From: Wenzhouxiangella sp.
GTDB lineage: Bacteria > Pseudomonadota > Gammaproteobacteria > Xanthomonadales > Wenzhouxiangellaceae
Assembly: GCA_007694055.1 (NCBI GenBank)
Contig: RECK01000094.1
Location: forward strand, 1-44,481
Length of the DNA stretch: 44,481 nt
Direction of reading: 5' to 3'
Made by a program: the position numbers and the translations under genes. Positions 8,165 to 26,997 of the stretch are shown here, piece after piece (the stretch's first letter is position 1; the number at the start of each line of letters is the position of its first letter). The notes under the pieces are model-generated. The model was not told the DNA's origin and made no database searches. It saw nothing but the letters and a program-made list of their open reading frames with translations.

Positions 8165-11100
8165 ATGCAGGTATTTAATCCTGTGGCAGTGGCCATGAAG
8201 CCCAGCCTGAAACACGCTTGCTCGTTCTGGCACGATGATCCGCGGTGTGCGGCAGGGTTGGGGTTTGCCCTGCTGCTGATCATGATCGCGCTTCCGCTTC
8301 AGGCAGCTACCCTGTTCGACTTCGAGCGCTTTTCCGACCAGCTCGGTGGCCGCCAGTCGACCGTTTACGACGTGTTCGAGGACCACCAGGGTTTTCTCTG
8401 GTTTGCCGGCGACACCGACGGCCTGCTGCGCTACGACGGATACGAGCTGATGAGCTGGAGCGAGGGTTTTCTCGCCACCGAGACCCGTCACAACGTCAGT
8501 ACCCAGATCATGTCGCGCAGCGGTCGTCTCTGGGCGGGCAGCTGGGGCAATGGCCTGCAGTACTGGGATCCGGCAGAGCAACGCTTCGTCCAGTTCCTGC
8601 ACGCGCCAGACGATCCGCACAGCCTGGCCGACAATCGCGTCCAGACCTTCCTTGAAGACAGTCGCGGCCGGCTCTGGGTGGGTACCGTGGCGGGCATCAA
8701 TATCGTCGATCCGGAGCAACCCAACCAACTCAGGCGCTTCGCTGCCGACCAGCCCGAGCACCCGCTCTATCGGCAGCGGATCTGGCGCCTGGTCGAATGG
8801 GACGGCTGGATCTGGCTGGCGACCTCGAATGGCGTGTTTCGCGTGGACATGGATAGCGGTGAGTGGCAGCGCTACTTGCTGGAGGCCGGTGATGAGGCGG
8901 TTGACCATGAGCGCAGCGACGAAGTCCGAACCGTGGCCCTGGCCCATGGCCGTGTCTGGGCCGCTTCCCAGCTGGGTGCCTTTGTCTGGGCACCAGCCCA
9001 GGGCCGCTTTGAGCGGGTCGAGTTTGCCCATGACGCCGCCCGCGCCCCGCCGCGCATCAACGAGCTGCTCGAAAGCCGCAGTCACGGTCTCTGGGTCGGT
9101 GCCCACGACGGTCTGTACCGCATCGATGCGGCTACCTCGGCTTTCGTTCAACTCGGCCAGCGCGGCCAGCTGATCCCCGATGTCGACGTGCGCGCCCTGC
9201 ATGAAGACGATGAGGGCAACCTCTGGATCGGCACCCGCGACCAGGGCCTGATCTTCGGTCGGCGCCAGCAGCAGACTTTCGCCCCGCTGCGTGAGCGGAT
9301 GCCGCCCGAGCTGGCCGAAGCGGGCGGCAGGCTCAGCTCTGCCCTGCTGACTGACCGGCGCGGCCGGCTCTGGGCCAGTTTTCCCGGCGGCATCCTCCGC
9401 CAGGACGAAGCAGGTGATTGGCGATCCTGGCGATTCGATCCCCGCGACGGTGTGCGCCGGGTCGAACGGCTGGTCGAAGATGCGCGGGGCTGGATCTGGC
9501 TGGCAACCGATGGCGGTCTGTTCGTGATCGACGAGGCCGACAATCTGCGCGCCGAAACCCGGATATTCGATCTGCTGGGCGTAGGTGTCTTGCCGGTCAG
9601 CGAGCTCTGGATCGGGCGTAACGGCTGTCTCTGGATCGGGCTCTGGCACTACGGCCTGGCCTGCTGGCAACCGGATGGCGATCATATCGATCTGCTGCTG
9701 ACCGAACTGCAGCAAACCCGGGGTGATTCGATCTATCAGCTTGCCAGCGACGACCAGGATCGTCTGTGGGTGGCAACCCGCTACGCCGGTCTGTTCTCGG
9801 TCGACCTCGAGGACCACACTGTGCAGCGCTGGCCGCTGGTCGACGGCGATCGCCACGAGCCTTCCTACTACTGTGCCGTGCCCGATGAGGGGCGCTTGTG
9901 GCTGTGTACCGGTGACGGCCTGATTGCATTTGACCCGAAAAGTGGCCGGAAACAGTCATACGGGACCGAACGCGGCCTGCCGGCAGCCCGTATCAGCGGC
10001 CTTTTCAAGCATCCGAGTGCGGGTCTCTGGGCGCTGACCCCCAATGGACTGGCCCGCCAGCTGCCCGGCCGTGACCGTTTCGTCAGCTACGGCCTGGCCG
10101 ATGGATTGCCAGGCCTGGGCTTGCAGCGTAATGCCGTCACCCTCGATCCGTCCGGTCGCCTGCTGGTTGGTACCAACCGCGGCGCGGCTGTTCTCCAGGA
10201 CCCGGAGTTGCCCCTGGACTACCGGGCGCCGCAGATGGTGCTCAGCCGGGTCTGGATCGGGCGTGAAGACCTGACCCGGCAGCTCGACCCGCACTCCCCC
10301 GAGGTGCGCCTGGCGCCAGACCAGCGCGACCTGATGCTCCAGTTCGCGGTGCTCGATTTCCACGATCCCGGCCGTAACGTGATGCGATTGAAGCTCAATG
10401 GCCTGGACGAGGATTTCGGCCCGCTGACCACCGAGCGCAGCGTCCGCTACCTGAACCTGGCGCCCGGACGCTACGAGCTTGTGGTCGAGGGCTGGAACAG
10501 CCGCGGTGTGCAGGCCGTGCAGCCGCTGGTGCTGTCCATCGTGGTCGCAGCGCCCTGGTGGCAGTTGCCCTGGGTCTGGCTGCTGGCTGCATCCGTCTTG
10601 CTGGTGCTGATCTGGCTGCTGGTCCAGGCGCGCCTGCATGCCATGCGCTCGGCCAACGCTCGCCTCCAGGTCATGGTGGATGAGCGAACCCGGGCCCTGG
10701 CCGATGCCAATGCCCAGCTGCGCACCCAGTCAACCCAGGACTTTCTTACCGGCCTGCTCAACCGTCGTGGCTTTACCGATCGCTTCAACAGCCTGCGCCA
10801 GGCCAGGGCGCAAACCGGCGAGCCACTGAGCCTGGTGCTGTTCGATCTCGACCATTTCAAGGAGCTGAATGACCGCCACGGTCATGATGCCGGTGACCGC
10901 GTACTGCGCCAGGTGGCCGAAATCCTTGGTCAGCAGCTCCCGGAGTCAGCCCTGGCCGCACGCTGGGGCGGCGAGGAATTCCTGATCGCACTGGACGGCT
11001 TGGACAGCGCAGACGCCGTTGCGGTTTGCGAGCAGTTGCGTGCCGCCTTCCGCGACTGCCCGGTTGCCGCCGATGGCACGATGGTCAGTTTTACCGCCAC

Positions 11101-11236
11101 TTTTGGCGTTGTGGTCAGCCAGGCCGGCGGCGCCAGCCTCGAAGACTGGATGCGCCAGGTTGACCAGGCCCTGTACGAGGGCAAGCGCGCCGGCCGCGAC
11201 CGCATCCGCGTTCACGACAGTGCCACGAGAACATGA
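8165..11236 (+). CDS. Two-component-regulator-propeller (Reg_prop) diguanylate cyclase
   Basis: A 1023-aa transmembrane sensor. An N-terminal signal sequence (to about residue 47, ending PLQA-ATL) leads into a long periplasmic beta-propeller made of about twelve Reg_prop-type repeats of the form D-x-x-G-x-LW-x-GT. Then come a Y_Y_Y-like domain (about 715-790), one membrane segment (about 800-822), a short coiled coil and a GGDEF domain with intact GGEEF (935-939), so it should make c-di-GMP. The usual upstream RxxD inhibitory site is absent (PESA instead), suggesting no product inhibition there. The start at 8165 has AGGGGA 12 nt upstream; an ATG at 8195 is an alternative that keeps the signal peptide. 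The ligand is unknown. Confidence 0.9.
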   Translation: MQVFNPVAVAMKPSLKHACSFWHDDPRCAAGLGFALLLIMIALPLQAATLFDFERFSDQLGGRQSTVYDVFEDHQGFLWFAGDTDGLLRYDGYELMSWSEGFLATETRHNVSTQIMSRSGRLWAGSWGNGLQYWDPAEQRFVQFLHAPDDPHSLADNRVQTFLEDSRGRLWVGTVAGINIVDPEQPNQLRRFAADQPEHPLYRQRIWRLVEWDGWIWLATSNGVFRVDMDSGEWQRYLLEAGDEAVDHERSDEVRTVALAHGRVWAASQLGAFVWAPAQGRFERVEFAHDAARAPPRINELLESRSHGLWVGAHDGLYRIDAATSAFVQLGQRGQLIPDVDVRALHEDDEGNLWIGTRDQGLIFGRRQQQTFAPLRERMPPELAEAGGRLSSALLTDRRGRLWASFPGGILRQDEAGDWRSWRFDPRDGVRRVERLVEDARGWIWLATDGGLFVIDEADNLRAETRIFDLLGVGVLPVSELWIGRNGCLWIGLWHYGLACWQPDGDHIDLLLTELQQTRGDSIYQLASDDQDRLWVATRYAGLFSVDLEDHTVQRWPLVDGDRHEPSYYCAVPDEGRLWLCTGDGLIAFDPKSGRKQSYGTERGLPAARISGLFKHPSAGLWALTPNGLARQLPGRDRFVSYGLADGLPGLGLQRNAVTLDPSGRLLVGTNRGAAVLQDPELPLDYRAPQMVLSRVWIGREDLTRQLDPHSPEVRLAPDQRDLMLQFAVLDFHDPGRNVMRLKLNGLDEDFGPLTTERSVRYLNLAPGRYELVVEGWNSRGVQAVQPLVLSIVVAAPWWQLPWVWLLAASVLLVLIWLLVQARLHAMRSANARLQVMVDERTRALADANAQLRTQSTQDFLTGLLNRRGFTDRFNSLRQARAQTGEPLSLVLFDLDHFKELNDRHGHDAGDRVLRQVAEILGQQLPESALAARWGGEEFLIALDGLDSADAVAVCEQLRAAFRDCPVAADGTMVSFTATFGVVVSQAGGASLEDWMRQVDQALYEGKRAGRDRIRVHDSATRT

Positions 11237-11314
11237 TCGCGCCCGACCGTCCGGCGCTTCCGGCTTCGGTCATGGGAATTGCCGGGCCGGCGCCTGGCCG
11301 CGAAGGAAACGCAC

Positions 11315-13336
11315 GTGGTACTGTCGGGGCTGGACCAGCTGAAAGCCGCGATGAACGAGGACGAGCGTTTACAAAAGGCCCGCAGGGAGCGTATTCGGGA
11401 AAGTTTTGAAGCCCCGGTGCTGGCACTGGAAGGCTATGCGAGCCTTTTGTCCGATCAGTTTGGCACCCTGGTCGATGATCAGCTGGCCAAAGCGCTGGCC
11501 GCTGACCAGGCGCGTATCGATGCGGCCATAGCCCAGCTGAAGGCGCTGGTTTCCGAAGCCCTGGACTGGGCCGGGAGCAATGCCGATGGTCATGCCGATG
11601 ACAGCCAGGCAGATGCTGACTCGCAGCGAATTCGCCACGACATGCGCAACGCGCTGGGTGCGGTTACCGGTTATGCCGAGCTGATTGCCGAAGCCCTGGA
11701 AGACGAGGGCAGCCTGGGCGAGCCGGTTGCGGTCTGCCTGACCCGACTGCAGCGTGAATCCGAGACCCTGCTGGGTACGCTCGACCAGCTCGATCCCGGC
11801 GCCCGGGCCGATGGGCCGGGAGTTGCAGGGCAGGGCGAGGTCGAAGCCATTTTCGAAAGCCTGGGCCAGGCCGATGAACGGGCCGACGATATTCCCGGCC
11901 GCATCCTGGTGGTTGACGATAACGAGAGCAATCGCAGCCTGCTGGCTCACCAGCTCACGGTTCAGGGACATGAAGTCCATACTGCCGCTTCCGGGCGGGC
12001 GGCACTTGCGCTGATGGACGAGTCGCTGCCTGACCTGGTTCTGCTGGACCTGATGATGCCTGACATGAACGGTTTCGAGGTGCTCAAGATCATGCATGCC
12101 CGGGCCGAGCTTCGCAACGTGCCGGTTATCGTCATCACCGGTCTGCACGACCAGCAGGGAGTGGTGCGCTGTATCGAGGCCGGTGCCCAGGATTACCTGG
12201 TCAAGCCACTCAACCCGGTCATTCTGCGGGCCCGCATGCGGGCCTGCCTGGAGCGCAAGGCCTGGCGTGACCGCGAACAGCGCTACCAGCGTCAGCTGGA
12301 GCGCAGCTACGAGTTCATTCGCAAGGTCTTCGGGCGCTATCTGTCCGACGATGTCGTGCGCCAGATCCTGGACGAAAAGGATGGCCTGAAGCTAGGGGGC
12401 GGGCTGCAGAAAGTCACCATCATGATGACCGATCTGCGTGGCTTCACCGAGTTGAGCCAGAAGCTTGCTCCGACCGACGTGGTCAGCCTGCTCAATCTTT
12501 ACCTTGAGGAGATGTCTGCCATCATCGTGCGCTACGGCGGCACGATCGACGAAATCATCGGGGATGCCATCCTGGTGCTGTTCGGTGCGCCGCTGGCCCA
12601 GGCCGACGATGCCGGCCGAGCCGTTGCCTGTGCCCTCGAGATGCAGCTGGCCATGGACAAGGTCAACGCGCAGGCGGCTCAACTCGGATTGCCGGCTGTG
12701 GAAATGGGGGTCGGGATCAATACCGGCGAAGTCGTGGTCGGCAACATCGGTTCCGAGATTCGCTCCAAGTTCGCGGTCGTCGGCCATCATGTCAACCTGA
12801 CCGGTCGGATCGAGTCGTTCAGCGTCGGCGGCCAGGTCCTGGTTTCCGAGTACACCGCTGCCGAAATCGGCGAGGCGCTGGAGTGCGGGCGCAGTTTCGA
12901 GGTTGACGCGAAGGGCATTGACCAGTCGGTTACCTTGCACGAGATCACTGGCATCGGCGAGCCCTGGTCGGTTCGGCTCGAGCCCGCTGATGAAGCCCTG
13001 GTTGAGCTTGAGGTGCCGCTGCCGGTTCGGTTTACCGAACTTACCGACAAGAAACTGGATGGCCCGGACCTGGCCGGTCAGATCGAAGCGCTGGGCAGTC
13101 ACCGGGCCGTTCTGAGCTGTGTCGGCCCGCTCGATACCATGGTCAACCTGCGGCTGCGTGCAGCGCCGGCGCCGGCCGCGATCGGATCAGACGCCAGGCT
13201 GGAAATTTATGCCAAGGTGATCGAACCCTGTACCGCGCGTGGGCCGGGGCGGTACCATATCGTCCTGACTTCCGTGGCGGCATCGGCCCGGCTAAGGGCC
13301 CTGGTCAATAAAGCGCCGCCCGCTTCGGGCGCCTGA
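11315..13336 (+). CDS. Receiver-linked class III adenylate/guanylate cyclase with histidine-kinase-like N-terminus
   Basis: A 673-aa soluble protein from a GTG at 11315 with AAGGAA 6 nt upstream. Order: a helical region resembling a DHp domain without the histidine (ESFEAPVLALEGYASLL), a second with an H-box (RHDMRNALGAVTGYAEL, His108) but no ATPase domain, a receiver (about 195-312, phospho-acceptor Asp245 in LLDLMMPDMNG), then a class III cyclase domain (about 365-515). Both metal-binding aspartates are present (Asp373 in MTDLRGFTE, Asp417 in IIGDAILVLFG), as are Asn494 and Arg498 of the transition-state pair. The base-specifying position, often Asp, is His491 (GHHVN), so ATP versus GTP cannot be called. 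The last 150 residues are beta-rich and unassigned. It is followed by a lone receiver and a hybrid kinase, probably its phosphate sources. Confidence 0.85.
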   Translation: MVLSGLDQLKAAMNEDERLQKARRERIRESFEAPVLALEGYASLLSDQFGTLVDDQLAKALAADQARIDAAIAQLKALVSEALDWAGSNADGHADDSQADADSQRIRHDMRNALGAVTGYAELIAEALEDEGSLGEPVAVCLTRLQRESETLLGTLDQLDPGARADGPGVAGQGEVEAIFESLGQADERADDIPGRILVVDDNESNRSLLAHQLTVQGHEVHTAASGRAALALMDESLPDLVLLDLMMPDMNGFEVLKIMHARAELRNVPVIVITGLHDQQGVVRCIEAGAQDYLVKPLNPVILRARMRACLERKAWRDREQRYQRQLERSYEFIRKVFGRYLSDDVVRQILDEKDGLKLGGGLQKVTIMMTDLRGFTELSQKLAPTDVVSLLNLYLEEMSAIIVRYGGTIDEIIGDAILVLFGAPLAQADDAGRAVACALEMQLAMDKVNAQAAQLGLPAVEMGVGINTGEVVVGNIGSEIRSKFAVVGHHVNLTGRIESFSVGGQVLVSEYTAAEIGEALECGRSFEVDAKGIDQSVTLHEITGIGEPWSVRLEPADEALVELEVPLPVRFTELTDKKLDGPDLAGQIEALGSHRAVLSCVGPLDTMVNLRLRAAPAPAAIGSDARLEIYAKVIEPCTARGPGRYHIVLTSVAASARLRALVNKAPPASGA

Positions 13337-13362: not shown

Positions 13363-13734
13363 ATGTCCGAAACCCTGCTCCTGATCGAAGACAACGAAAT
13401 GAATCGCGACATGCTCAGTCGCCGACTGGCGCGCAAGGGCTATGTTGTCGAAGAAGCGGTTGATGGCCAGGCCGGACTCGACCAGGCGGCCGCGTTGAGG
13501 CCGGACCTGATCCTGCTCGACATGAGTCTGCCGGTAAAGGATGGCTGGACCGTGGCCGCTGAACTCAAGGCCGATCCGGACCTGTCCGGCATTCCGGTCA
13601 TTGCGCTGACCGCGCACGCCATGGATGGTGACCGGCAGCGGGCGCTGGAGGCCGGCTGCGATGATTACGACACCAAGCCGGTCGATCTCAAGCGTTTGCT
13701 GGGCAAGATCCAGGCCCTGCTTGCATCGTCCTGA
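13363..13734 (+). CDS. Single-domain response regulator (CheY/DivK-like)
   Basis: A 123-aa stand-alone receiver with the acidic pair in [11 protein letters not shown], phospho-acceptor Asp53 in [13 protein letters not shown], the conserved Thr/Ala in IALTAHAM, and the lysine in DTKPVD. It has no output domain, so it acts by protein contact or as a phosphate shuttle. It lies 26 nt after the receiver-cyclase and 37 nt before the hybrid kinase, which suggests one signalling operon. The [12 protein letters not shown] ending is typical of receivers fed by hybrid kinases. Confidence 0.92.
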
Positions 13735-13771: not shown

Positions 13772-16069
13772 ATGACTCTGATCACCCGTATCAGCCTGGT
13801 GTCTGCCATCGTGCTGGCTCTGTTCCTGGTCAGCAGCGGCATATTCCTGCACGCGAACCGGACCAGCAGCGAGGTTGTCGGCGCACTCCAGGCGGTCAGC
13901 GGCGCCCAGGCCGAGGTCAGCGAGCTCAGCCAGCAGATCGACGCGCTGAATCGCCAGCTCCAGGCACTTGAGGCGCTGGCCGGTCTGGACAACGGTGGCG
14001 TAATCTCGGACGGGGAGCGTGACAGCCTGCTGGCCAGCCTGGAGCAGATCCAGGCCCGCCGCGCCGCAGTACGCCAGATCCTGGACCAGCATGCCGACGC
14101 GGCGGTTGAAGACGCCGCGCTGGAGCGTTTGCTTGCGGCCTGGGCTGCCTACGCCCAACACCTGGCCGGGACAAGCTCGCCAGACAGGGAGGGACTGGCG
14201 CCGATCGAAAGCCCGAGCCAGTTGCGCGAGGCCCTGGTCGCCGCCCGGGCTGATCTGGCAGACAAGGCCGCGGCACTTCAACGTGCCGCCCTGGCCCTGA
14301 ACGACGACATGACCCGCGTCGTCGAGCGCAGCAGTCTGATCATCAAGGTGGTCTTCTCCGTGGCCCTGATCGCGGTGCTGGGGCTGGGTTACCCGCTGGA
14401 ACGCCACATCCGCCGCTCGCTGCGTGCATTGACTCGTGGCGTGGATCGGTGGCGGGGCGGGCGCTTTGATTACCGCATTCCCGACCTGGGCGGTGACGAG
14501 CTGGGTCAGCTGGGCAGCCAGTTCAATGGCATGGCCCAGCGCATCGAGGAGATGCTGACCGAACTGCAGGCCGCGCGTGCCCTGGCCGACCAGGCCAACC
14601 AGGCCAAAAGCGATTTTCTCGCCAACATGAGTCACGAGCTGCGCACGCCGATGAATGCGATCATCGGCTACAGCGAAATGATTCTCGAAGAAATCGAGGA
14701 TGATCCGGAGGTCGGGGCCCGGGAATTCGAGGCCGACCTGGGCAAGATCCAGGCCGCCGGTCGCCACCTGCTGGCCCTGATCAACGACATCCTCGACATC
14801 TCCAAGGTCGAGGCCGGCAAGATGACCCTGTTCCTGGAGCCGGTCCAGTTGCCGGAACTGGTCGACGACACGGTGGCAACGGCCCAGCCCCTGATCGAGA
14901 AAAACGGCAATACCCTGAAGCTGGAATTCGAAGGCCTGGACGGCCCGATCCAGGCCGATACCACCAAGCTCAGGCAGATTCTGCTCAACCTGCTCAGCAA
15001 TGCCGCCAAGTTCACCCGCCAGGGCCAGATTACCCTGAGTTCCCGGGCCTGCCGGGTACACGGACAGCCGCAGGTCGAGATTGCCGTGGCCGATACCGGC
15101 ATCGGCATGACCATCGAGCAACTGGAGCAGGTGTTCGAGGCTTTCACCCAGGCGGATTCCTCGACCACGCGCCAGTTCGGTGGCACCGGTCTTGGCCTGA
15201 CCATTTCCAAGCGCTTTGCCGAACTGATGGGCGGCAGCCTGACGGTGACCAGCGAACATGGCGTGGGCACCTGCTTCACCCTGACTTTCCCCTTGCTCTC
15301 GGCCGATGCCGAAGCCAGTGCCGGCGAACCGGCCAGCGTGCAGCGGTCGGGTGAGAAATCGCCCGTGCGCGTGCTGGTCATTGACGATGACTTCAGTGCG
15401 CGCGACATTGCCCGCCGCATCCTGACCCGAGAGAATTTCGAGGTCATTACCGCCGAAACCGGGCCGGCTGGAATTGCGGCCGCCCGCGAGCAGCGTCCGG
15501 ATGTCATCGTGCTCGATGTGCTCATGCCCGGCATGGATGGATGGCAGGTGCTGCAGGCGTTGAAGGATCATCCGGACACGGCCCGCATACCCATCGTGAT
15601 GCAGTCGATGCTCGAAGAACGAGAGCAGGGCCTGGAAAAGGGTGCTGATGAGTACCTGACCAAGCCGATCGAGCGGGGCAAACTGACCCATGCCATCCGC
15701 GCTCTCCTGCCTTCGAATCCAGCCGGCAAGCTGTTGCTGATCAGCAGTCAGCCGGAGCCGCTTGAAGACGCCGGTGACCTGATGGACGACAAGCGCCTGT
15801 CGCTGGTGCAGACAGACAGCCTGGATGAGGCCGAGGCCATGATTCGCTCGCAAGTGGTTGGCATGGTGCTGATTGGCTGGCACGAACGCCCCGACGATGT
15901 TGCCGCCTTGATGGGCCGGATGCAGCAGCGCCCGGAAACCCGCGGGATTCCGATGCTGTTGCTCAAGTCATCGCGTCAGCAGGGCAGCCAGGTCGAGCAG
16001 CTCAACCAGCACCTGATGCAATACATCAGCCGGCTGCGCCCCGATGGCGAGGTCGGCGACAGTAGCTGA
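13772..16069 (+). CDS. Hybrid sensor histidine kinase with C-terminal receiver and pseudo-receiver
   Basis: A 765-aa membrane kinase beginning at the ATG at 13772 (AAGGGAG about 10 nt upstream). TM1 spans about 5-27; a mostly helical periplasmic sensor follows to about 186; TM2 about 188-208; HAMP about 209-262; HisKA with [12 protein letters not shown] (His288); HATPase with N-box [11 protein letters not shown] (about 410), G1 ADTGIGM and G2 GGTGLGL; a full receiver with Asp582 in [11 protein letters not shown]. After residue 652 a further segment has the hydrophobic pattern of a receiver but Gly702 where the aspartate belongs (VLIGWHE). The stimulus is unknown. Its stop directly abuts the stop of the convergent lipoprotein gene. 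Confidence 0.93.
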
Positions 16070-16627
16070 TCAGCCTTCGCCCATGATCAGCTCGCGCAGG
16101 CGGCTGACGGTTTCCTCGGCCTGGGCTCGTTCAGCCCGGGCCTGTTCGAGTTCGCCTTGCAGCGCCCGATTGCGACCGGTGCTGGCTGCCAGTTCGCGCT
16201 GCAGCTGTTCCTGGCGCTGTTCCGACTCGATCAGGCGACCCACGGTCTGACCCAGGATCCAGTCAAAAACCGCCACACCGTCGGCTTGCTGAGCCGGATC
16301 GGCAATGCCTTCGAGACGCTCGGCGGCGCGGTCGAGATCGCGGCCTGACCAATCCGGGGCGGCATAAACCAGGGCCTGGCCCAGGCGCGCCCGGGCATTG
16401 AGTTCACTGCCTTCGGGAGTCAGTCGAATGACCTCGTCGAAGTTGGCCAGGGCGCGATCATGCCGGCCATCGAACAGCTGTTGCCAGGCGTCGGACAGGC
16501 GCGCCGGCGCCTCGCTTCGAGCTGCTGCCGGACGGGTCTGCTCATCGCCCCTTTCAGGCTGGGATTCCGGCATCAGCGCGCAGCCGACAAGGCTTAGCGC
16601 AGCGGTGATCAGAAGCAGTAGTCGCAT
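16070..16627 (-). CDS. Small TPR-like lipoprotein
   Basis: A 185-aa secreted lipoprotein of unknown function. The start at 16627 gives a signal sequence MRLLLLITAALSLVGC with a lipobox (LVGC) and has AAAGGAAC upstream; longer readings lack a signal. The mature protein has a helical, TPR-like part (about 45-85, SDAWQQLFDGRHDRALANFDEVIRL split as a helical hairpin) and a C-terminal coiled coil rich in E, Q and R (about 140-183). Asp at +2 is absent (Ala follows Cys), so outer-membrane sorting is expected by the usual Lol rule. It converges on the hybrid kinase with no spacer between stop codons. Confidence 0.8.
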   Translation of the reverse strand: MRLLLLITAALSLVGCALMPESQPERGDEQTRPAAARSEAPARLSDAWQQLFDGRHDRALANFDEVIRLTPEGSELNARARLGQALVYAAPDWSGRDLDRAAERLEGIADPAQQADGVAVFDWILGQTVGRLIESEQRQEQLQRELAASTGRNRALQGELEQARAERAQAEETVSRLRELIMGEG

Positions 16628-16726
16628 GGTGTTCCTTTGGGTGTGGATGGGCGAGGCCTGTATCCGGCAGTCAACGCCGGGCATTGTGCCATAATGCCTG
16701 CGCACTCACCTGCCGGGCCGTTGTCC

Positions 16727-17113
16727 ATGTTCACTGCCAACCAGATCGTGGCGCACTTCGTCGGCGATTACCTGCTGCAGAGCGACTGGATGGCCCAGAA
16801 CAAGCATCAGCGTCTTGATGCGGCCATCCTGCATGTGATTTTCTACACCCTGCCGTTCTTGTTCATCACCCAGGAACCGATTGCGCTCGCCTTGATTGCG
16901 CTGACGCATCTGGTCGTTGATTATTTCGGCCTGGCGCGTTACCTGGCCTGGCTGAAGAACCGGCCCTGGCCGGGCAGCCGGCCATGGAAGGAGTGCCGGG
17001 ACTCCGGTTTTCCCCCGGAAATGCCCAAGTGGCAGTCGAGCTGGCTGGTGGTCATCATCGACAATACCGTGCACATTCTGTGCAACGGTGTGGTGATCTA
17101 CTACTTCGGCTGA
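16727..17113 (+). CDS. DUF3307 membrane protein
   Basis: A 128-aa protein with the DUF3307 signature AHFVGDYLLQSDWMA at the start, followed by two hydrophobic segments (AAILHVIFYTLPFLF; ALALIALTHLVVDYFGL) and a C-terminal one (VVIIDNTVHILCNGVVIYYFG). The family is of unknown function; the conserved His and Asp residues in H-x3-D and THLVVDY could bind metal, but that is inference. The ATG at 16727 matches the family start; an ATG at 16694 would add 11 residues and overlaps a CATAAT box, so it is less likely. The 3' end overlaps the patatin gene by 13 nt on the opposite strand. Confidence 0.82.
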   Translation: MFTANQIVAHFVGDYLLQSDWMAQNKHQRLDAAILHVIFYTLPFLFITQEPIALALIALTHLVVDYFGLARYLAWLKNRPWPGSRPWKECRDSGFPPEMPKWQSSWLVVIIDNTVHILCNGVVIYYFG

Positions 17114-18927
17114 CCGTCCCCGGCCGCGCCAGCGGACTCGCTGATCCAGGCGCGCAGGCTTTCCAGGCTGCTCTCGTAGCCGGTCTGGACCAGGTCGTCG
17201 TACTGATTGACATCGATCATGTTGAAGCGCTCGATGGGCGGACGAATCAGCAAGTCAGCGCGATCACCCAGTTCCTGAACCCGCTTGCGCGTGCCCAGCT
17301 CGATCGCCTTGAGCATCATCGAGGCAACACCGGGCACTTTCTTGCGCTTGCCGAAAGGCCAGATCATGCCGCCCAGCACAGCCCAGGGCGAGGGGGCTTC
17401 GTCGAAATCGACCTGGCGCTGGCGATGCGCGCTCAACGTGACGGCGATAACCTGGCCGACCAGGCGTTGCTGCATGACATCGACGGGCAGGTTGTTGACC
17501 ACGGCCCCGTCAATGGTCAGCTCGCGCTCGTGTATGGCCGGCGGAAACAGGCCGGGCAGGGAGGCGCTGGCGCACAGTGCCCGCCACACGGGCCCGCTTT
17601 CGTGAATGTTGGTATCCCCGCTGTTGAGGCTGGCAGAGATGGCGAAGAACGGGATTGGCAAATCCTCGATACGGGTCGGAAAGAAACGGCGGGTCAGACG
17701 CTCCATCCGCTTGCCGCGCATCAGCGACAGCAGTGGCAAGGTGTAGTCGCTCAGTGGCTTGCCATCGACGAAGGCCTTGCGCGCCTGGGCAATGGCTTCC
17801 TCGCTGTTCCAGCCCATGGCCGCACAGGCGGCCATGACCGCCCCCATGCTGGTGCCGCCAACCCAGTCGATTGGAATGCCCAGCTCGCCCATGGCCTTGA
17901 TCACCCCCAGGTGGGCCAGGCCGCGCACCGCGCCGCCGCTCAAGACCAGGCCAATGGCCCGTCCGGTCAGGATGCGGACCAGTCGTTCCTGGTCGGCTGC
18001 GTGATCGGCCCGCACGTGCAGCGGGCGGGTGCCGGGGCGTGATTCGAGCCAGCTTGCCGTTCCGGTGATCGTGGTTGTGCCCGGACCATGCCAGAGCGCC
18101 AGCAGGCTTTCGCCGTGGGCAAGCCTGGACTCATCCTCGGCGACGGCTGACTCGATTGGTCGCCGTGACGGCTCGGCGTCGGCGCGGGCCAGGTAGACGA
18201 CCTGGTCGGCCTGGCGCAGGGCGTAGTCATTCCAGCCTGAAGGGCCGGATGCAACCTGGAAGACCAGGCGCTGGAATTGCTCTTCCTGCTCCGACAGCCA
18301 CTGTTTGAGTGCCGTGCCAGGGCTGCCAGTGTCGGTATCGATGCCGTCCGGAGCGCCGAGCGCTTGCAGCGCCTCCGGGCTGAGCGCCATCCCCTCGCCG
18401 TTGCCGCACAGGTCGTCGGCCAGGCGCGCTATCCAGTCCATCAGCTCCGGGTCGTTGTCCAGGGCAACCAGGGCCAGGGTACGCGGTGCCGGGCGGGTGT
18501 GGCGGCGCTGGGTATGCCGGGCCAGGCGATGGGCGACGCTGGCCGAGATCTGCATGACCATTTCAGGATGGCTGCGAGCCAGCTCGTCCAGGCTTGCGCG
18601 ATCGACCCGGAACAGCAGGCTGTCGCGGCGTGCGCGCACCCCGGCGCTGCGCGGTGCATTGGTCAGCAGACCAACTTCGCCAACCGCCTCGCCAGCCGCG
18701 ATCTCGTTGAGCATTCGCGCCGTGCCGTCGTCATCCTGATGCCAGGCCTCGAGGCGCCCGCGCACAAGAAAATACAGCGAATCTCCCGGGTCGCCCTGCT
18801 GGAACAGCCACTGGCCGCCATCGAGTTCGACCGGCTGCATGGCACCGACCAGGTCGGCATGGCGGTCTGGATCGAGGCCGAAAAAATCGCGCAGCAGGTG
18901 CAGATGGGTATTGTGGGCAGAAGACAT
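17101..18927 (-). CDS. Patatin-like phospholipase with cyclic-nucleotide-binding domain (NTE type)
   Basis: A 608-aa protein of the neuropathy-target-esterase/RssA group. An N-terminal CNB domain (about 10-135) has an intact phosphate-binding cassette, GEVGLL...PRSA with Glu84 and Arg93, the residues that hold the cyclic phosphate and ribose, so cAMP or cGMP binding is plausible. After a linker domain comes the patatin domain (about 325-540): oxyanion loop GGAVRG (331-336), nucleophile Ser360 in GGTSMGA, catalytic Asp473 in DGAVVNN. It should cleave acyl chains from phospholipids or lysophospholipids at the inner membrane. It is the last gene of the devBCA-like operon, 7 nt after the ATPase gene. 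Confidence 0.92.
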   Translation of the reverse strand: MSSAHNTHLHLLRDFFGLDPDRHADLVGAMQPVELDGGQWLFQQGDPGDSLYFLVRGRLEAWHQDDDGTARMLNEIAAGEAVGEVGLLTNAPRSAGVRARRDSLLFRVDRASLDELARSHPEMVMQISASVAHRLARHTQRRHTRPAPRTLALVALDNDPELMDWIARLADDLCGNGEGMALSPEALQALGAPDGIDTDTGSPGTALKQWLSEQEEQFQRLVFQVASGPSGWNDYALRQADQVVYLARADAEPSRRPIESAVAEDESRLAHGESLLALWHGPGTTTITGTASWLESRPGTRPLHVRADHAADQERLVRILTGRAIGLVLSGGAVRGLAHLGVIKAMGELGIPIDWVGGTSMGAVMAACAAMGWNSEEAIAQARKAFVDGKPLSDYTLPLLSLMRGKRMERLTRRFFPTRIEDLPIPFFAISASLNSGDTNIHESGPVWRALCASASLPGLFPPAIHERELTIDGAVVNNLPVDVMQQRLVGQVIAVTLSAHRQRQVDFDEAPSPWAVLGGMIWPFGKRKKVPGVASMMLKAIELGTRKRVQELGDRADLLIRPPIERFNMIDVNQYDDLVQTGYESSLESLRAWISESAGAAGDGQPK

Positions 18928-18934
18928 GCGGCAG

Positions 18935-20290
<1,356 letters not shown>

Positions 20291-20292
20291 GG

Positions 20293-21441
20293 TCAGAACA
20301 CCTCGGCGGGGTCGAGGCGGCGCACCTTGCGCATGGCCAGAAGTCCGCTCAAGGCGCACATGGCCAGGGTGGTGCCAAACACGCCCAGGGCGCGCTCGGT
20401 GGTGATGTAGAGCGGCAGCTGGGTGGCCTCGGCAGTCAGCCCGTACAGCCACCAGACCAGGGCCAGCCCGGGGAGATAACCGAGCACGGCCAGGATCGCG
20501 GCCTGCTGCAGGACGATGCCCGAGACGAAACTGTTGCGGTAGCCGATGGCGCGCAGGGTACCGTACTCATTGAGGTGTTCGGAGACATCGGCGAACAGGA
20601 TCTGGTAGACGATGATGCCGCCGACGATCAGGCCCATGATGGCGCCAAAGGCGAAAATGTAGCCGATCGGGGTGGCCGAGTTCCAGTAGCGCTGCTCGCG
20701 CTCGACGAAGTCGGCCCGGGTCATGACCAGGATATCGTCGGGCAGGCGCTGATCGAGGCGGTCCCTGACCAGGTTCGGATCGGCTCCCTCGGTGAGCTGC
20801 AGCAGTCCGAGCTGAATCCGGTTGCGTGATCGATCCGGGAACAGGCGCAGCCAGTTGTCGTCGCTGGTCAGGATCATGCCGTCGATGCCGAACGAGGTGC
20901 CCAGCTCGATCAGTCCGACCACCTCCATGTCGCGGTCGTTGATCTCGGTGGTCAGGCGGCTGCCGCCTTCCAGCACCGTGGCCACGGGGCCGAATTCCGG
21001 GCGCGATGCGGCGTCGAATGCAACCACGTTCTGCTGGGTCAGCAGGGGTCGTACGGCGTCGAAACCGGGAGCGTCGAGAATGTTGTGCTGAGGATCGAAG
21101 CCCAGCGCCGAGAGACTGCGGCGCTCATTGTTCCAGGGATTCTTCCACACCGCCGGGAACAGGTAGACCGGCATGACCTTGGCCACGTCCTCGTCGCCCA
21201 GGGCCTGGTACAGGCGGGCCAGGGGGAAGTCCTGCGGCCGGACGATAAAGACGCTGTCGACTGAAAACAGCGCAATGTCATAGTTGAGCTGGTTGTGCAG
21301 GCGCACCGAGCTCTCAAACAGGGCCGTTCTGAATCCCAGCTGCATCATGATCAGCAATACGGCAAAGGCAATACCGGCGATTGCCACCAGCAGGCGCAGT
21401 GGCTTGTGCTTGAGTTGCAGCCATCCGAGTGGGGTGCGCAT
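20293..21441 (-). CDS. DevC-like ABC transporter permease
   Basis: A 382-aa FtsX-fold permease. An N-terminal membrane helix (about 18-38) is followed by a large periplasmic domain (to about 255) and three C-terminal helices (about 262-285, 310-332, 350-370), the MacB/LolC topology. The start MRTPLGWLQLKHKPLRLLVAIAG and the ending RLDPAEVF agree with DevC proteins, which pair with DevA and DevB to export glycolipids in cyanobacterial heterocysts. The ATG overlaps the stop of the upstream adaptor gene by one base (TGATG), and the stop lies 2 nt before the ATPase gene, so the three are one coupled operon. The substrate is unknown. Confidence 0.92.
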   Translation of the reverse strand: MRTPLGWLQLKHKPLRLLVAIAGIAFAVLLIMMQLGFRTALFESSVRLHNQLNYDIALFSVDSVFIVRPQDFPLARLYQALGDEDVAKVMPVYLFPAVWKNPWNNERRSLSALGFDPQHNILDAPGFDAVRPLLTQQNVVAFDAASRPEFGPVATVLEGGSRLTTEINDRDMEVVGLIELGTSFGIDGMILTSDDNWLRLFPDRSRNRIQLGLLQLTEGADPNLVRDRLDQRLPDDILVMTRADFVEREQRYWNSATPIGYIFAFGAIMGLIVGGIIVYQILFADVSEHLNEYGTLRAIGYRNSFVSGIVLQQAAILAVLGYLPGLALVWWLYGLTAEATQLPLYITTERALGVFGTTLAMCALSGLLAMRKVRRLDPAEVF

Positions 21442-22421
21442 CAGGGATTGATCAGCACGGTGACCTGGAGATTGGTCAGCCCGGCGACCGCCTCGGGCTC
21501 GTCGAGCAGGATTTCGACCTCGATGATGCGGGCGTCCTTGCGTGCGGCCGGGTCGGTATCGGTTTCGTCCTGCTTGCGCACGCGCTGGCGAATGTGGCGC
21601 ACGCTGCCGGTCAGGTTCTGGGCCAGTACCGGGCTGCTGACTTCGGCGCGCTGGCCGACGGCCACGCGCGGCAGGTCGGCTTCGTAGACCTCGGCGATGG
21701 CCTGCATGCGGTCGACTTCGGCCAGCTCGATCGCCCCGGCCAGTCCCACCAGTTCGCCGGGCCGGGTAAGAATATCCAGGACGCGGCCGTTGATCGGCGA
21801 AATGATCCGCGCACGTTCGAACTCGGCCATGGCCCGGCGATGCGCAGCCTCGGCTACCGGCACGGTGGCTGCAACGGCCCGGGCCTGGTCGCGCGCAGAC
21901 TGGCAGGTGGCTGCGGCCAGGCGGGCATCAGCGCGGGCCCGCTCGGCTTCCTCGGCGGTCACGACTTCCCGGTCCAGCAGGGACTCGCGACGTTCGGCCT
22001 CGCGCTCGCGGACCTCGGCCAGGACACAGCGCTCTTCGGCCTGGCTTTGTGCCGCCCGCGCCTGGTGCCTGGCCAGGTCTATGGCCGTGCGGGTTTCTTC
22101 GGTGACGGCTTCGAGTACATCGGCTATGTCGGTGATGGCCAGTTCCTGCCCGACCCGCACATCGTCCCCCTCCTCGACAAACAATTCCTTGATCAGCAGC
22201 CCCGTGGTCGAAGCCAGCGGTGCCGGCGCGCCAAGACGGATGATGCCATTGATGGGTTCGATGCGGCCAAGCGCGGCCACCCGCTGACCAACTCCCGGCT
22301 GGGCGGTGAAGCGTTCAGGCAAGTCGGTGGCGCCAACAGGCTCCAGCAACAGCGCCAGGATGGCGGTGCCTGCGATCAGGCTGAGTGCGACGGCGGTCAG
22401 AGACCGTAGGATGACAGGCAC
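21441..22421 (-). CDS. DevB-like HlyD-family periplasmic adaptor
   Basis: Membrane-fusion protein, 326 aa from a GTG at 22421 with a strong AAGAGGGA 6 nt upstream; an ATG at 22484 would add 21 charged residues before the anchor. The anchor helix is near residues 5-27. The lipoyl/barrel-sandwich half-motifs (LGRIEPINGIIRLGAP; ARIISPINGRVLDI) flank an alpha-helical hairpin rich in A, E and R (about 100-200), followed by a beta-barrel domain. It should bridge the permease to an outer-membrane channel, but no TolC-type gene is nearby, so a shared channel elsewhere is implied. First gene of the operon devB-devC-devA/GAF-patatin. Confidence 0.9.
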   Translation of the reverse strand: MPVILRSLTAVALSLIAGTAILALLLEPVGATDLPERFTAQPGVGQRVAALGRIEPINGIIRLGAPAPLASTTGLLIKELFVEEGDDVRVGQELAITDIADVLEAVTEETRTAIDLARHQARAAQSQAEERCVLAEVREREAERRESLLDREVVTAEEAERARADARLAAATCQSARDQARAVAATVPVAEAAHRRAMAEFERARIISPINGRVLDILTRPGELVGLAGAIELAEVDRMQAIAEVYEADLPRVAVGQRAEVSSPVLAQNLTGSVRHIRQRVRKQDETDTDPAARKDARIIEVEILLDEPEAVAGLTNLQVTVLINP

Positions 22422-22736
22422 GATGATTCCCTCTTGGCGTTCTGAAAGCCGCTTGATAAGTGATTTTTGTGCCCTTTCAGGCATTCGGGTGACGTGGCAT
22501 GACGGCGACCGGCAGTCGATACTTTAAACTGTCTTTCCAGTCCATGCCAGCAAGGCTGGGACATGGATGCAATGAATTGCACGTCTGTGAGATACTAAGA
22601 AATTACGTACGGCCTCGTACTGGACGACTTTCCGGCGCCCCCAGTGGAGCGGAAACATCGTGGCCTTCCGCGAACCGGGAGTGACAAGCCCGAGCCCAGT
22701 GCTAGCCAATTGAACAAGCCCTTTAGGAGAAAGCCG
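22422..22736. other. Divergent intergenic region between the exporter operon and gltA
   Basis: No gene is seen in these 315 nt. They should hold promoters for both flanking genes. I see two inverted repeats (22568-22581 and 22607-22620) but no convincing sigma-70 hexamer pair; the best plus-strand match is ATGACG (22499-22504) with TTTAAA (22523-22528) at 18-bp spacing, which is weak. Confidence 0.5.
22568..22581. promoter_or_regulatory. Palindrome TGCAAT-GA-ATTGCA, candidate operator
   Basis: A perfect 6-2-6 inverted repeat lies midway between the divergent devB-like gene and gltA. Its size and symmetry suit a dimeric helix-turn-helix repressor or activator. A second, GC-richer repeat (GTACG-GCCT-CGTAC, 22607-22620) lies 25 nt downstream. 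No regulator can be named. Confidence 0.35.
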
Positions 22737-24026
22737 GTGTCCGAACGCAAACTGACCTTGACCGATCCCCAGACTGGAAAGTCGCTTGATCTGCCGGTAG
22801 TCGCCGGCTCCGAGGGGGATCCCACGCTGGACATCAGCCGCCTGCACCCGGAGCTGGGTTACTTCACCTACGATCCGGGCTATGGCACCACCGCCAGCTG
22901 CAAGAGCGACATTACCTACATCGACGGCAACGAGGGCATTCTGCGCTACCGCGGCTACCCCATCGATCAACTGGCCGAGCAATCCAGCTTCGTCGAAGTG
23001 GCCTACCTGCTGCTCTACGGTGAACTGCCCAGTACCGAGCAGTTCGCCCGCTTCGAGAGGGACATCACCTACCACACGATGGTCCACGAGAAGATCAACA
23101 GCTTCATGAGCGGCTTTCACTACAACGCCCATCCGATGGCCATCATGTCCGGGGTGGTCGGCTCCATGGCCGGCTTCTACCACGACAAGCTGGATGTCAA
23201 CGATGCCGAGCAGCGCGACCTGGCAGCCAAGCGCCTGATCGCCAAGATGCCGACCATTGCCGCGGCCGCCTACCGCCACTACATGGGCTGGCCCAGTGCC
23301 TACCCGCGCAACTCGCTGAACTACTCGGAACGCTTCCTGCACATGATGTTTTCGGTGCCGGCCGAGTCCTACGAGGTCAACCCGATTGCGGCCAGGGCCC
23401 TGGATCTGCTGTTCATCCTGCATGCCGATCACGAGCAGAACGCGTCCACCTCCACGGTACGCCTGGTCGGTTCCACCGGGGCCAATCCCTATGCCTGTGT
23501 GTCGGCCGGTATTGCTGCCCTGTGGGGTCCCGCGCACGGCGGTGCCAACGAGGCAGTCCTGAACATGCTCAACCAGATCGGCGACGTCAGCCGGGTCGGC
23601 GAGTTCGTCAAGCGGGCCAAGGACAAGAACGATCCGTTCCGCCTGATGGGCTTTGGTCATCGGGTGTACAAGAACTTCGATCCGCGCGCAACGATCATTC
23701 GAAAAGCCTGCCATGAAGTGCTGGGTGAACTCGGGCAGAAGGATCCCCTGCTGGACCTGGCCATGGAACTGGAAAAGATTGCGCTGGAAGATGAGTACTT
23801 CGTCGAGCGCAAGCTCTATCCCAACGTCGACTTCTACTCCGGCATCATCTACAAGGCGCTGGGCATTCCAACCAGCATGTTCACCGCCATGTTCGCCATC
23901 GGCCGCACGGTCGGCTGGGTCAGCCAATGGCTGGAACAGTCAGCCAGCCCGCACCGCATCGGCCGCCCGCGCCAGGTCTACACCGGCGCCGGCGAGCGTG
24001 ATTACGTCGATATCGACCAGCGCTGA
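22737..24026 (+). CDS. gltA: Citrate synthase (type II, hexameric family)
   Basis: Condenses acetyl-CoA and oxaloacetate to citrate, the entry step of the TCA cycle. The GTG start at 22737 has AGGAG 7 nt upstream and gives 429 aa (E. coli 427); an upstream ATG at 22644 lacks support. Active-site residues are His267 (PAHGGANEA), His308 ([14 protein letters not shown]) and Asp365 (NVDFYSG), aligned with E. coli His264, His305 and Asp362; the oxaloacetate-binding [12 protein letters not shown] segment is also intact. The gene is monocistronic, divergent from the exporter operon and convergent with the SDR gene through a strong hairpin. Confidence 0.97.
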
Positions 24027-25011: not shown

Positions 25012-26997
25012 ATGGAAGAAGGATTGCTGGATAGTCTGACTGCCGTGGTCCAGTCCCACCCGGGCTGGCTGATCGGCCTGGCTTTCGGTTTTGCCCTGCT
25101 CGAGTCTCTGGCCATAGTCGGCATCTTCGTGCCTGGCATCGTGCTGTTGTTCATGGTCGGCGCGGTCATCGGCATGGACCCCGGCCTGTTCCTGATTTGC
25201 TGGCTGGCGGCCAGCGTCGGGGCCTTGACCGGCGATCTGGTCAGTTACTGGCTGGGCTATCGCTTCAGCGATCGCGTCCCCGGCGTCTGGCCGCTGAGCC
25301 GACGTCCGGAAATGATGGCCGCCGGTCAGGTGCTGTTTGCCCGCCACGGCGGCAAGGGTGTGTTCATCGGTCGCTTCATCGGTCCGATCCGGCCGGTGGT
25401 GCCGCTGCTTTCGGGCACCATGGGCATGCGTCCGCTGGCATTCCTGGCCTGGTCCGTGCCGGCCTGCATCCTGTGGGCGCCGCTGTACCTGCTGCCGGGC
25501 ATGCTGTTCGGCGCTTCTCTGGAACTGGCTGCCGACTTCGGCGGGCGCCTGGTCCTGGTGCTGCTGATCCTCGTTCTGGGCGGCTGGTTCGTGATCTGGC
25601 TGACTCGCCTGGTCTACGAGTTCACCGCCCGCCGCTCGGGCTGGTGGCTGCGCAGCGTCATTCGCTGGAGTACCGACCAGCCCGGGGTTGGCCGTTTGCT
25701 GCGCCCGCTGTTCGAGCCCGGCGGCAGGGAAGTGCTGAGCGTGGCCTTGCTCGGTATCTTGCTGGTCGTGTCCCTGGCTGTGCTGATGGCGGTGCTGATC
25801 TCGACCCCTTTTCTCGCCCCGGCATGGGATGCCGAGTACCGGCTGGTCAACCTGTCGGCCAGCCTGCGCAACCACGTCGCCGACCCCCTGTTTGCCTGGT
25901 TATCCCTGGCCGCCGAGCCCCGGGTTGCGGTGACCGTGACGCTGCTCATGGGGCTGGTGCTGTTGCTGCTGGGGCGTAGGCTGACCTTGTGGCACTGGCT
26001 GGCTGCGCCCCTTGGTGCCTATGTGCTGGCTATTTTGCTCAGTGCCTTGATGGGCCTTTTGATCGACGGGCCCGAGTCGGTGCCGACGGTCGGGCAGGTT
26101 CCGCATCGTGGCATGGCCCTGACCACGGCCGTGCTCGGGTTTTTCGCGGTCATGCTGGCCAAGGACCTGGGTGCCCGGCGCCGCAAGTGGCCGTACCTGG
26201 TCAGTGCCGTGCTGGTTGCCGTGCTCGGTTTTTCCCACTACTACCTGGGCCTGGCCAGCCTGGCCGGATTGCTGGCGGGTATTGCCCTGGCCATGGGCTG
26301 GACCGCCCTGGTGGGCATCGCTTACCGCAGCCGTTCGACCAGCCGTCGCCGCCCGGTCTGGCTGTCGCTGGCTTTCTACTCGCTGATTGTCGTGGTGGCC
26401 ATCGTGCATGCCCGCGGCGAGGTGGCTGTTCGCCTGGACGCCACTCGCCTGGCCCAGCCGGATCGCAGCTATTTTTTCCTGGATTGGCAGGATGAGGGCT
26501 GGCGCCAGCTGCCCGATCGGGTGACCCGGCTGGGTCGCCATCACCGTTCGCGATTCGACTTCCAGGTGGCTGCCAACCTCAACCGTCTCGCGGAGCAGTT
26601 GGCCGATGAGGGCTGGCTTGAGGTCGAGGCGGGCAGCGGTGCTGCGCTATGGTCGCTGTTGCTGGGGTCGGATGACATCGCGACCCTGCCGCACCTGAGT
26701 CGAGACTTTGCCGGTCGCCCGGACGACCTGGTCATGCGACGGGAAGCGCCCGATGGTTCGGTTTACCTGGCCAGACTATGGTCTTCGGGCGCGCGGCTGG
26801 AGCCGGGTGGCGTGCCGATCTGGCTCGGCCAGGTGCGCCAGGTCCAGCCAGTTCGCCAGCTGGTGGTGCTCAGTCGCTGGGATGAAGTCGATGACGGCGG
26901 TGACCGGGCCCTGGCGCAGCTGGAGCTGGGTCTGGGCGCGTGGCGGATTGGCGGTCCGGAGGCGCGGCCGCGACTCTACGTTTCCATGTTCGACTGA
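25012..26997 (+). CDS. VTT (DedA)/PAP2-like/LssY C-terminal membrane protein
   Basis: A 661-aa polytopic membrane protein. An N-terminal VTT/DedA domain (about 15-205) has the FVPGIVLLFMVGA and GRFIGPIRPVVPLLSGTMGM motifs of lipid scramblase-like proteins. The middle (about 240-440) has the helix pattern of PAP2 phosphatases but the catalytic motifs are lost: PSGH reads PHRG (364-367) and the SR-x5-H-x3-D motif reads with His409, Ala415 and Gly419. The C-terminal soluble domain (about 475-661) looks like LssY_C. It is probably involved in membrane lipid handling, without phosphatase activity. Its 3' end overlaps the Lon-N-like gene by 22 nt on the opposite strand. Confidence 0.82.
   Translation: MEEGLLDSLTAVVQSHPGWLIGLAFGFALLESLAIVGIFVPGIVLLFMVGAVIGMDPGLFLICWLAASVGALTGDLVSYWLGYRFSDRVPGVWPLSRRPEMMAAGQVLFARHGGKGVFIGRFIGPIRPVVPLLSGTMGMRPLAFLAWSVPACILWAPLYLLPGMLFGASLELAADFGGRLVLVLLILVLGGWFVIWLTRLVYEFTARRSGWWLRSVIRWSTDQPGVGRLLRPLFEPGGREVLSVALLGILLVVSLAVLMAVLISTPFLAPAWDAEYRLVNLSASLRNHVADPLFAWLSLAAEPRVAVTVTLLMGLVLLLLGRRLTLWHWLAAPLGAYVLAILLSALMGLLIDGPESVPTVGQVPHRGMALTTAVLGFFAVMLAKDLGARRRKWPYLVSAVLVAVLGFSHYYLGLASLAGLLAGIALAMGWTALVGIAYRSRSTSRRRPVWLSLAFYSLIVVVAIVHARGEVAVRLDATRLAQPDRSYFFLDWQDEGWRQLPDRVTRLGRHHRSRFDFQVAANLNRLAEQLADEGWLEVEAGSGAALWSLLLGSDDIATLPHLSRDFAGRPDDLVMRREAPDGSVYLARLWSSGARLEPGGVPIWLGQVRQVQPVRQLVVLSRWDEVDDGGDRALAQLELGLGAWRIGGPEARPRLYVSMFD

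Follow-up and report, generated by a model that had tools for sequence, protein, structure and literature searches.

A putative second-messenger-gated lipid export and cleavage operon in Wenzhouxiangella

The window analysed here is the whole of a 44,481-nt stretch of Wenzhouxiangella sp. DNA (assembly GCA_007694055.1, contig RECK01000094.1, positions 1–44,481, forward strand; Pseudomonadota, Gammaproteobacteria, Xanthomonadales, Wenzhouxiangellaceae). Positions 17101–22421 on its minus strand hold four genes in the order devB, devC, devA-GAF and CNB/NTE-type patatin, that is, a DevBCA-type ATP-binding cassette (ABC) exporter whose ATPase carries a GAF domain, and a phospholipase that carries a cyclic-nucleotide-binding (CNB) domain. 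On balance, we favour the view that the operon is a second-messenger-gated lipid export and cleavage unit, in which a two-component guanylyl cyclase would feed cyclic GMP (cGMP) to the exporter ATPase and the lipase. More tentatively, and without calling it probable, we propose that cGMP gates the ABC exporter directly, the GAF domain on the ATPase and the CNB domain on the phospholipase being switched together by a dedicated two-component guanylyl cyclase.

Architecture of the operon and its two putative sensors

The four open reading frames (ORFs) lie where the first-pass annotation of this DNA had placed them and are as tightly coupled as it had described: devB (21441–22421) and devC (20293–21441) overlap by 1 nt, devC and devA-GAF (18935–20290) are 2 nt apart, and 7 nt separate devA-GAF from the patatin gene (17101–18927). 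All three exporter subunits exceed the NCBI curated cut-offs (NCBIfam) for DevB, DevC and DevA: the periplasmic adaptor DevB with 171.3 bits (TIGR02971, cut-off 129), the FtsX/MacB-type permease DevC with 429.4 bits (TIGR01185, cut-off 290.35) and DevA with 335.6 bits (TIGR02982, cut-off 295.8). devB starts with GTG at 22421, an upstream ATG at 22484 being possible. The ABC motifs of DevA (Walker A, signature SGGQ, Walker B DEP, switch His) show no variation in 11 rows, a row being an aligned sequence. Since the same layout recurs in other genomes, it is not a product of chance. None of the four genes encodes a TolC-type outer-membrane protein. An Rfam scan of the window gave no match, and a sigma-70-like promoter scan of 16000–22800 found 0 promoters, with 0.6 expected from shuffles.

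DevA has 451 residues and the TIGR02982 model 220 positions; beyond the ATPase (residues ~7–224) lie about 225 extra residues, consisting of a helical linker and a C-terminal GAF domain (residues 296–424; 19019–19405; PF01590, 52.2 bits against a Pfam cut-off of 22.4). Modelled alone, linker and GAF reached a mean predicted local distance difference test (pLDDT) score of 81.4, with the first 15 residues poor. A PDB profile search with a profile of 15 DevA tails gave as its top match the cyclase CyaB2 (1ykd, E 1.7e-53), followed by phosphodiesterases (PDEs), namely PDE5 (3lfv, 1e-41), PDE2A (1mc0, 3.5e-39) and then PDE6 and PDE10. The GAF of an HD-GYP protein (4mcw) reached 1.5e-27, and heme GAFs were far weaker (2vzw, 5e-06; DevS 2w3d, 0.003), so that by sequence the nearest GAFs are those of the PDE and CyaB proteins. 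PDE10, PDE5, PDE6, CyaB2 and PDE2 also ranked high in structural comparison, with Z scores of 20.5 for PDE10 (root-mean-square deviation 2.5, 160 residues), 19.6 for PDE5 (2.8, 168) and 18.9 for CyaB2 (2.0, 151). The highest Z belonged to 4mcw (20.8; 3.7, 176), and the PtsP GAFs 3ci6 (18.8; 2.9, 149) and 3trc (18.7) were level with CyaB2. The modelled GAF fold alone appears not to discriminate, as the HD-GYP and PtsP GAFs score like those of PDEs and CyaB2, which counts against our interpretation; because structure does not separate these families from other GAFs, the case for this domain rests on sequence.

The nucleotide contacts described for the CyaB2 GAF, Arg291, Thr293, Asp356 and Asn359 (PMC4411481), correspond by our reading of the profile alignment to R312, S314, D374 and S/T377 of DevA. 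Over 44 rows, the window's among them, position 312 is Arg in 42 and Lys in 2, position 314 is Ser in 42 and Thr in 2, and D374, T381 and Q401 are invariant (44/44 each); position 377, Ser in the window, is Thr in 32, Ser in 7, Leu in 3 and Phe in 2. The NKFDE-type motif (N404, R405, F411, D415, E416; 19043–19081) holds N, F and D in all 44 rows and E in 43. These GAFs depart from the exact motif in its lysine, which is replaced by arginine in 43 of the 44 rows, the remaining row having Lys; this too may speak against nucleotide binding. Alanine at each NKFDE position is described to have abolished cGMP binding by PDE2 GAFb (PMC11977230). Taken together, the profile matches and pocket residues suggest that the DevA GAF is of the PDE type, that is, of the phosphodiesterase/CyaB2 kind, and probably binds a cyclic nucleotide monophosphate (cNMP). 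In a control of 369 genomes drawn from the class, DevA-GAF was present only in the window's own genome; 15 others had a similar GAF (E ≤1e-25), and the best ORF held a class III cyclase in 11 of these. The other four ORFs (L134, L143, L145, L146; L and G numbers denote fetched loci and compared genomes, respectively) lack a class III cyclase domain, so a similar GAF can serve other outputs too.

The patatin protein (model mean pLDDT 82.7) scores above the Pfam cut-offs for CNB (PF00027, 75.3 against 27.5), NTE_Ploop (PF24179, 38.6 against 27) and Patatin (PF01734, 104.8 against 27.7). Its CNB domain (residues 33–120; 18568–18831) matches PKA, SthK and CRP, and its phosphate-binding cassette contains Glu84 and Arg93, which we take to be the phosphate-binding residues that matter and which are each conserved in 39 of 39 rows. 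The residue after Arg93 is Ser in 25 rows, Thr in 9, Ala in 4 and Met in 1; a Ser or Thr at this place occurs in cGMP-type sites and is present in CRP too. The catalytic domain (residues 327–484; 17476–17949) has a Ser/Asp dyad, with S360 in 39/39 rows and D473 in 38/39; in the exception, L058, the sequence stops short at the end of its contig. With the NTE_Ploop and patatin domains, the GxSxG and the catalytic Asp-Gly all present, the fourth protein is, as judged from its sequence, a single-CNB NTE-like patatin. The nearest match to its patatin fold is PlpD.

The earlier claim that both sensor folds are of cNMP type thus finds good support at the level of sequence, the GAF being nearest to PDE/CyaB2 GAFs and the CNB domain matching PKA, SthK and CRP, with near-invariant pocket positions in each. 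This conservation also bears on whether the two domains could be relicts, or structural dimerisation domains, free of cyclic-nucleotide control. GAF folds bind varied ligands, the NKFDE lysine is an arginine here, and GAFs of other function reach nearly the same structural Z; however, the ligand-pocket positions in 44 GAF and 39 CNB rows exceed in conservation the mean column identities of 65% and 57% (alignments of 35 GAF and 30 CNB rows, respectively), two unrelated cNMP folds stand side by side, and a cyclase is linked in part of the loci. We therefore regard a purely relict or structural role as improbable.

Recurrence of the exporter-patatin pair

Among 121 genomes of relatives (the window's own included), DevA-GAF was found in 14, in 13 of them at full length and in one (G098) split in two frames. 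A CNB-patatin scoring above 480 bits occurs in exactly these 14 genomes, while 25 further genomes have weaker matches, the best at 365 bits. Two short peptide patterns, run against contigs from one genome per species, gave at least 43 loci, all titled as metagenome-assembled genomes (MAGs) and some identical with operons counted among the 121 relatives; their titles name, among others, Wenzhouxiangella, Lysobacterales, Chromatiales, Pseudomonadales, Steroidobacteraceae, Myxococcales, Deltaproteobacteria, Acidobacteriia, Bryobacterales and Sumerlaeia. A same-strand CNB-patatin accompanies DevA-GAF in 37 of the 43 loci (two of them, L058 and L060, cut by contig ends), or in 38 when L075 is counted, which has only the CNB end of the patatin gene at a contig edge; the contig of L063 is cut 52 bases past the DevA ORF. 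In L079, L083 and L091 the patatin gene lies ahead of devB, so the association survives rearrangement. Co-occurrence outside close relatives, which the first-pass annotation had made its touchstone, is found, the pair being present in Wenzhouxiangella, Lysobacterales, Chromatiales, Pseudomonadales and Steroidobacteraceae loci and once in a deltaproteobacterial MAG.

Other features of these loci deserve mention. Stand-alone CNB proteins of ~130 residues are encoded on the opposite strand, no more than ~1 kb from devB, in three loci (L062:4163-4570, L065:6144-6533, L072:1728-2120). Recurrent neighbours in marine Lysobacterales loci (a response-regulator/kinase pair, dus-like and electron-transfer genes, named by eye) were considered and judged to be general genome context.

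A Cya2-type cyclase and the probable messenger

A gene for a receiver–class III cyclase (11351–13336, plus strand; PF00072, PF00211, PF00512) ends 3.8 kb from the operon, in line with the distance of about 4 kb given earlier. Its ORF is listed from a TTG at 11279, with the ATG at 11351 the likelier start, and a HisKA-like stretch (PF00512) lies N-terminal of the receiver. The top PDB matches of the cyclase domain are 6fht (5.2e-63) and 2w01 (1.9e-62), the latter aligned gap-free over 193 residues; 2w01, labelled adenylate cyclase in the PDB listing, is presumably Synechocystis Cya2. Cya2 is described as a guanylyl cyclase whose substrate is switched by E488K (PMC5995499). With its label bacteriophytochrome/adenylate cyclase, 6fht agrees with the E488K fusion of Cya2 in that work, and in the alignment it shows Lys at the position of the Glu in 2w01 and the window cyclase. 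Guanylyl cyclases are reported to have Glu in place of Lys, with varied partner residues including Gly and Ala (PMC4215837). The window cyclase has Glu (12551–12553) at the purine-specifying Lys site and a non-Asp partner, Ala (12773–12775), together with both metal Asp residues and the Asn/Arg pair.

Thirty cyclase matches were fetched from the relatives, and all 10 above 200 bits (L098–L107) have Glu with Gly or Ala; the 20 weaker ones have Lys (17), Asn (2) or Glu/Thr (1). A second set of 30, taken from the 31 genomes to which further operon loci belong, comprises 4 with Glu/Gly, 24 with Lys, 1 with Gln and 1 with Asp. A tree of 63 cyclase rows unites the 14 Glu-Gly/Ala cyclases with Cya2 in a single clade (support 100/96), set apart from the Lys/Thr cyclases and with the Glu/Thr row as sister. 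Without Cya2 the 14 are joined at only 84/21, with long branches elsewhere in the tree. By its specificity residues and its place in the tree, the neighbouring cyclase looks like a guanylyl rather than an adenylyl cyclase.

This clade also bears on the possibility that cyclase and patatin make up a defence system resembling Pycsar or CBASS, the patatin being the effector. Among PADLOC models, which have no curated cut-offs, PycC models match the cyclase (best 1.8e-17) and TIR-effector and PycTIR models match the CNB domain (1.6e-15 and 2.1e-15), and CapV/CapE patatins match the patatin fold. However, the cyclase falls into the Cya2 clade, is linked to a receiver and has a kinase alongside, the core of the system is an exporter, and the other identified genes of the window are mostly housekeeping. 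After the PADLOC check, and given the Cya2 clade, the defence reading was set aside as very improbable.

The cyclase and the operon are physically linked in several gene orders. Within the genus of the window, six genomes (its own included) have the operon, and these six are also the ones with a cyclase match above 200 bits. Cyclase and operon are close neighbours in the window and in L056, L057, L081, L044, L058, L060 and L070, and ~10 kb apart in L045. It is convergent with the operon in the window and L056, divergent in L057 and L081 and on the same strand at a distance in L045; in L058, L060, L070 and L044 the genes for kinase, receiver, DevB, DevC, DevA-GAF and patatin follow one another on one strand and the cyclase gene is divergent. 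The cyclase contig of G028 stops within the kinase gene, while a kinase end is present on its operon contig; in G035 a contig ends inside a divergent devB.

A number of observations weigh against the proposed unit. The patatin is missing in 4 of the 43 loci (L084, L095, L096 and L097, the last being itself only a short match). Six relatives (G049, G059, G074, G080, G092, G118) have the operon without a Cya2-type cyclase, and among the 31 genomes behind further operon loci, whose completeness is not stated and of which the genome of L063 apparently equals the MAG G092, such a cyclase was found in only 4 and not in 27. Conversely, G110 has the cyclase module and not the operon, and in G098 the two are on different contigs. 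Finally, the pockets show no clear-cut difference between the 12 GAFs with and the 32 without a Cya2-type cyclase in locus or genome. Among the inspected positions, the largest GAF difference is at 377 (Ser 7/Thr 5 with the cyclase, Thr 27/Leu 3/Phe 2 without), and lesser changes occur at 313, 330, 331 and 371; within the CNB cassette (12 with, 27 without), E84 and R93 are invariant and positions 80, 85, 91 and 95 shift somewhat. Fisher's test for association between operon and Cya2-type cyclase across the 121 relatives (8, 2, 6, 105) gives p 1.4e-7; this value is not independent of ancestry and counts G035 as operon-less despite its contig end in devB, and we do not lean on it. As to the co-occurrence with receiver-cyclases that the first-pass annotation proposed to test, the cyclase is near the operon in varied gene orders, and the search of operon-bearing genomes gave no Cya2-type cyclase in most of them.

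Where the cyclase is linked, its Cya2-type identity and guanylyl-cyclase Glu argue for cGMP, and the messenger in the window is probably cGMP rather than cAMP. As no clear-cut pocket difference separates GAFs with and without such a cyclase, cAMP could be the ligand elsewhere, or the cyclase could have been missed there; in lineages without one, the sensors may read cAMP. Extended to the window itself, such a reading would have both sensors bind cAMP, the adjacent cyclase serving other effectors or making cAMP despite its Glu. The failure to find a Cya2-type cyclase in most operon-bearing genomes searched, many of which have Lys/Thr cyclases, and the lack of a clear-cut pocket difference are consistent with it, as are the reported activation of CyaB2 by cAMP through its GAFs and the binding of both nucleotides by isolated GAFb (PMC4411481). 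However, Glu is present in 14 of 14 Cya2-type cyclases found, which group with Cya2, the GAF pattern R-x-S, D-x-x-T and Q resembles PDE5 in the profile alignment, and Ser or Thr follows the CNB Arg in 34 of 39 rows, as in cGMP-type sites, albeit in CRP too. We consider cAMP as the common ligand in the window unlikely.

Proposed mechanism and relation to known systems

Two further plus-strand genes complete the putative signalling module, one for a single-domain receiver protein (13363–13734, from its translation), a short ORF that accompanies the cyclase or kinase in other loci too, and one for a hybrid histidine kinase with HAMP-HisKA-HATPase-receiver order by Pfam (13772–16069; the ORF is listed from 13625 and the start was chosen by eye). 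In our model, the kinase would activate the receiver-linked Cya2-type cyclase through a receiver relay, and the cyclase would make cGMP. This cGMP would bind to the GAF domain of DevA, probably in dimeric form, and to the patatin's CNB domain, and each would close. Two outputs would thereby be switched, most likely to the on state. One would be the ATP-powered export of a lipid or glycolipid-like cargo through DevBC together with an outer-membrane factor, the other hydrolysis of phospholipid or lysophospholipid at the inner membrane. Activation of exporter and lipase by the ligand is most likely by analogy with the PDE5 and CyaB2 GAFs; inhibition, as in the c-di-AMP-gated OpuA, is possible. 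The idea that one messenger switches lipid export and cleavage together, raised in the first-pass annotation, is partly supported, by the genes, the cNMP-type domains and their recurring pairing, and is limited by the lack of an identified Cya2-type cyclase in most of the operon-bearing genomes searched. In animals, the evidence for CNB-site control of NTE activity is described as indirect (PMC6852622).

A lipid cargo would accord with DevBCA-HgdD, which exports heterocyst glycolipids (PMC6161253). In the distant acidobacterial locus L095 (L095:3-13133), genes for an AMP-ligase/carrier/ketosynthase, a thioesterase and a phosphopantetheinyl transferase precede DevBCA-GAF, an outer-membrane efflux gene follows, and a CNB protein stands beside the system; this neighbourhood is a hint of a lipid-like cargo. 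Separately, the receiver-cyclase/kinase module of G110 has MlaE, MlaD and ABC ATPase genes on the same stretch, together with one for a YegS-type lipid kinase (L129:2154-5154, 14367-15284), and the Mla part of L130, from G098, resembles that stretch by eye only; both are at most hints.

The exporter is like heterocyst DevBCA-HgdD in its three subunits above curated cut-offs and in its gene order, and unlike it in the PDE-type GAF within the DevA extension, in its patatin partner and, in some lineages, in its cyclase partner. The GAF domain has as its nearest solved relatives by sequence profile those of PDE2/5/6/10 and CyaB2, which it resembles in pocket and NKFDE positions, yet it is single, sits on an ABC ATPase rather than on a cyclase or phosphodiesterase, and has Arg for Lys. 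The patatin shares CNB, NTE_Ploop and patatin domains and the Ser/Asp dyad with NTE-type patatins (PNPLA6/7 and bacterial CNB-patatins); it has one CNB domain, in contrast to the three cNMP sites described for PNPLA6 (PMC6852622), and is set in an exporter operon. The cyclase resembles Synechocystis Cya2 in its gap-free catalytic alignment, Glu specificity residue and clade, and is receiver-linked rather than CHASE2-linked as described for Cya2 (PMC5995499). The Xanthomonas XC_0250/XC_0249 cGMP pathway is likewise gammaproteobacterial and links a guanylyl cyclase to an effector with a CNB domain, in that case a GGDEF protein, and the available text describes no exporter or lipase (PMC3770947).

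Searches of open-licence PMC text gave no account of these individually known parts in combination, above all of a predicted PDE-type GAF on the ATPase of an ABC exporter, nor any description of a DevA-GAF or GAF-gated exporter. A parallel is OpuA, an ABC importer gated by c-di-AMP through CBS domains: as proposed here, a second messenger gates an ABC ATPase via an added C-terminal domain, but OpuA is an importer and uses a cyclic dinucleotide and a CBS fold. The known routes of cyclic mononucleotide action are mostly transcription factors, enzymes and channels, and to our knowledge few effectors of bacterial cGMP have been described. If the model is true, a cyclic nucleotide would act directly on the motor of an ABC exporter, an output of a new kind, bacterial CNB-patatins would gain a physiological setting, and bacterial lipid export and lipid cleavage would stand under one cyclic-nucleotide command; the arrangement suggests a small messenger directly switching lipid traffic.

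Several neighbouring genes complete the picture. Directly before the receiver-cyclase, a plus-strand gene (8165–11236) encodes a two-component-propeller/GGDEF protein (PF07494, PF00990), with homologues at the same place in L040 and L131; its position suggests cross-talk between cGMP and cyclic di-GMP (c-di-GMP) in the window's clade. On the operon's other side from devB, a DUF3307 gene (16637–17113) converges on the patatin stop, as it does in L044, L055, L056, L062 and L070. The minus-strand ORF at 16070–16705 (211 residues) has no Pfam match at 1e-5 and is conserved in L040 (61%) and L041 (57%), and 25012–26997 combines an N-terminal VTT domain with a C-terminal LssY_C match under the curated cut-off.

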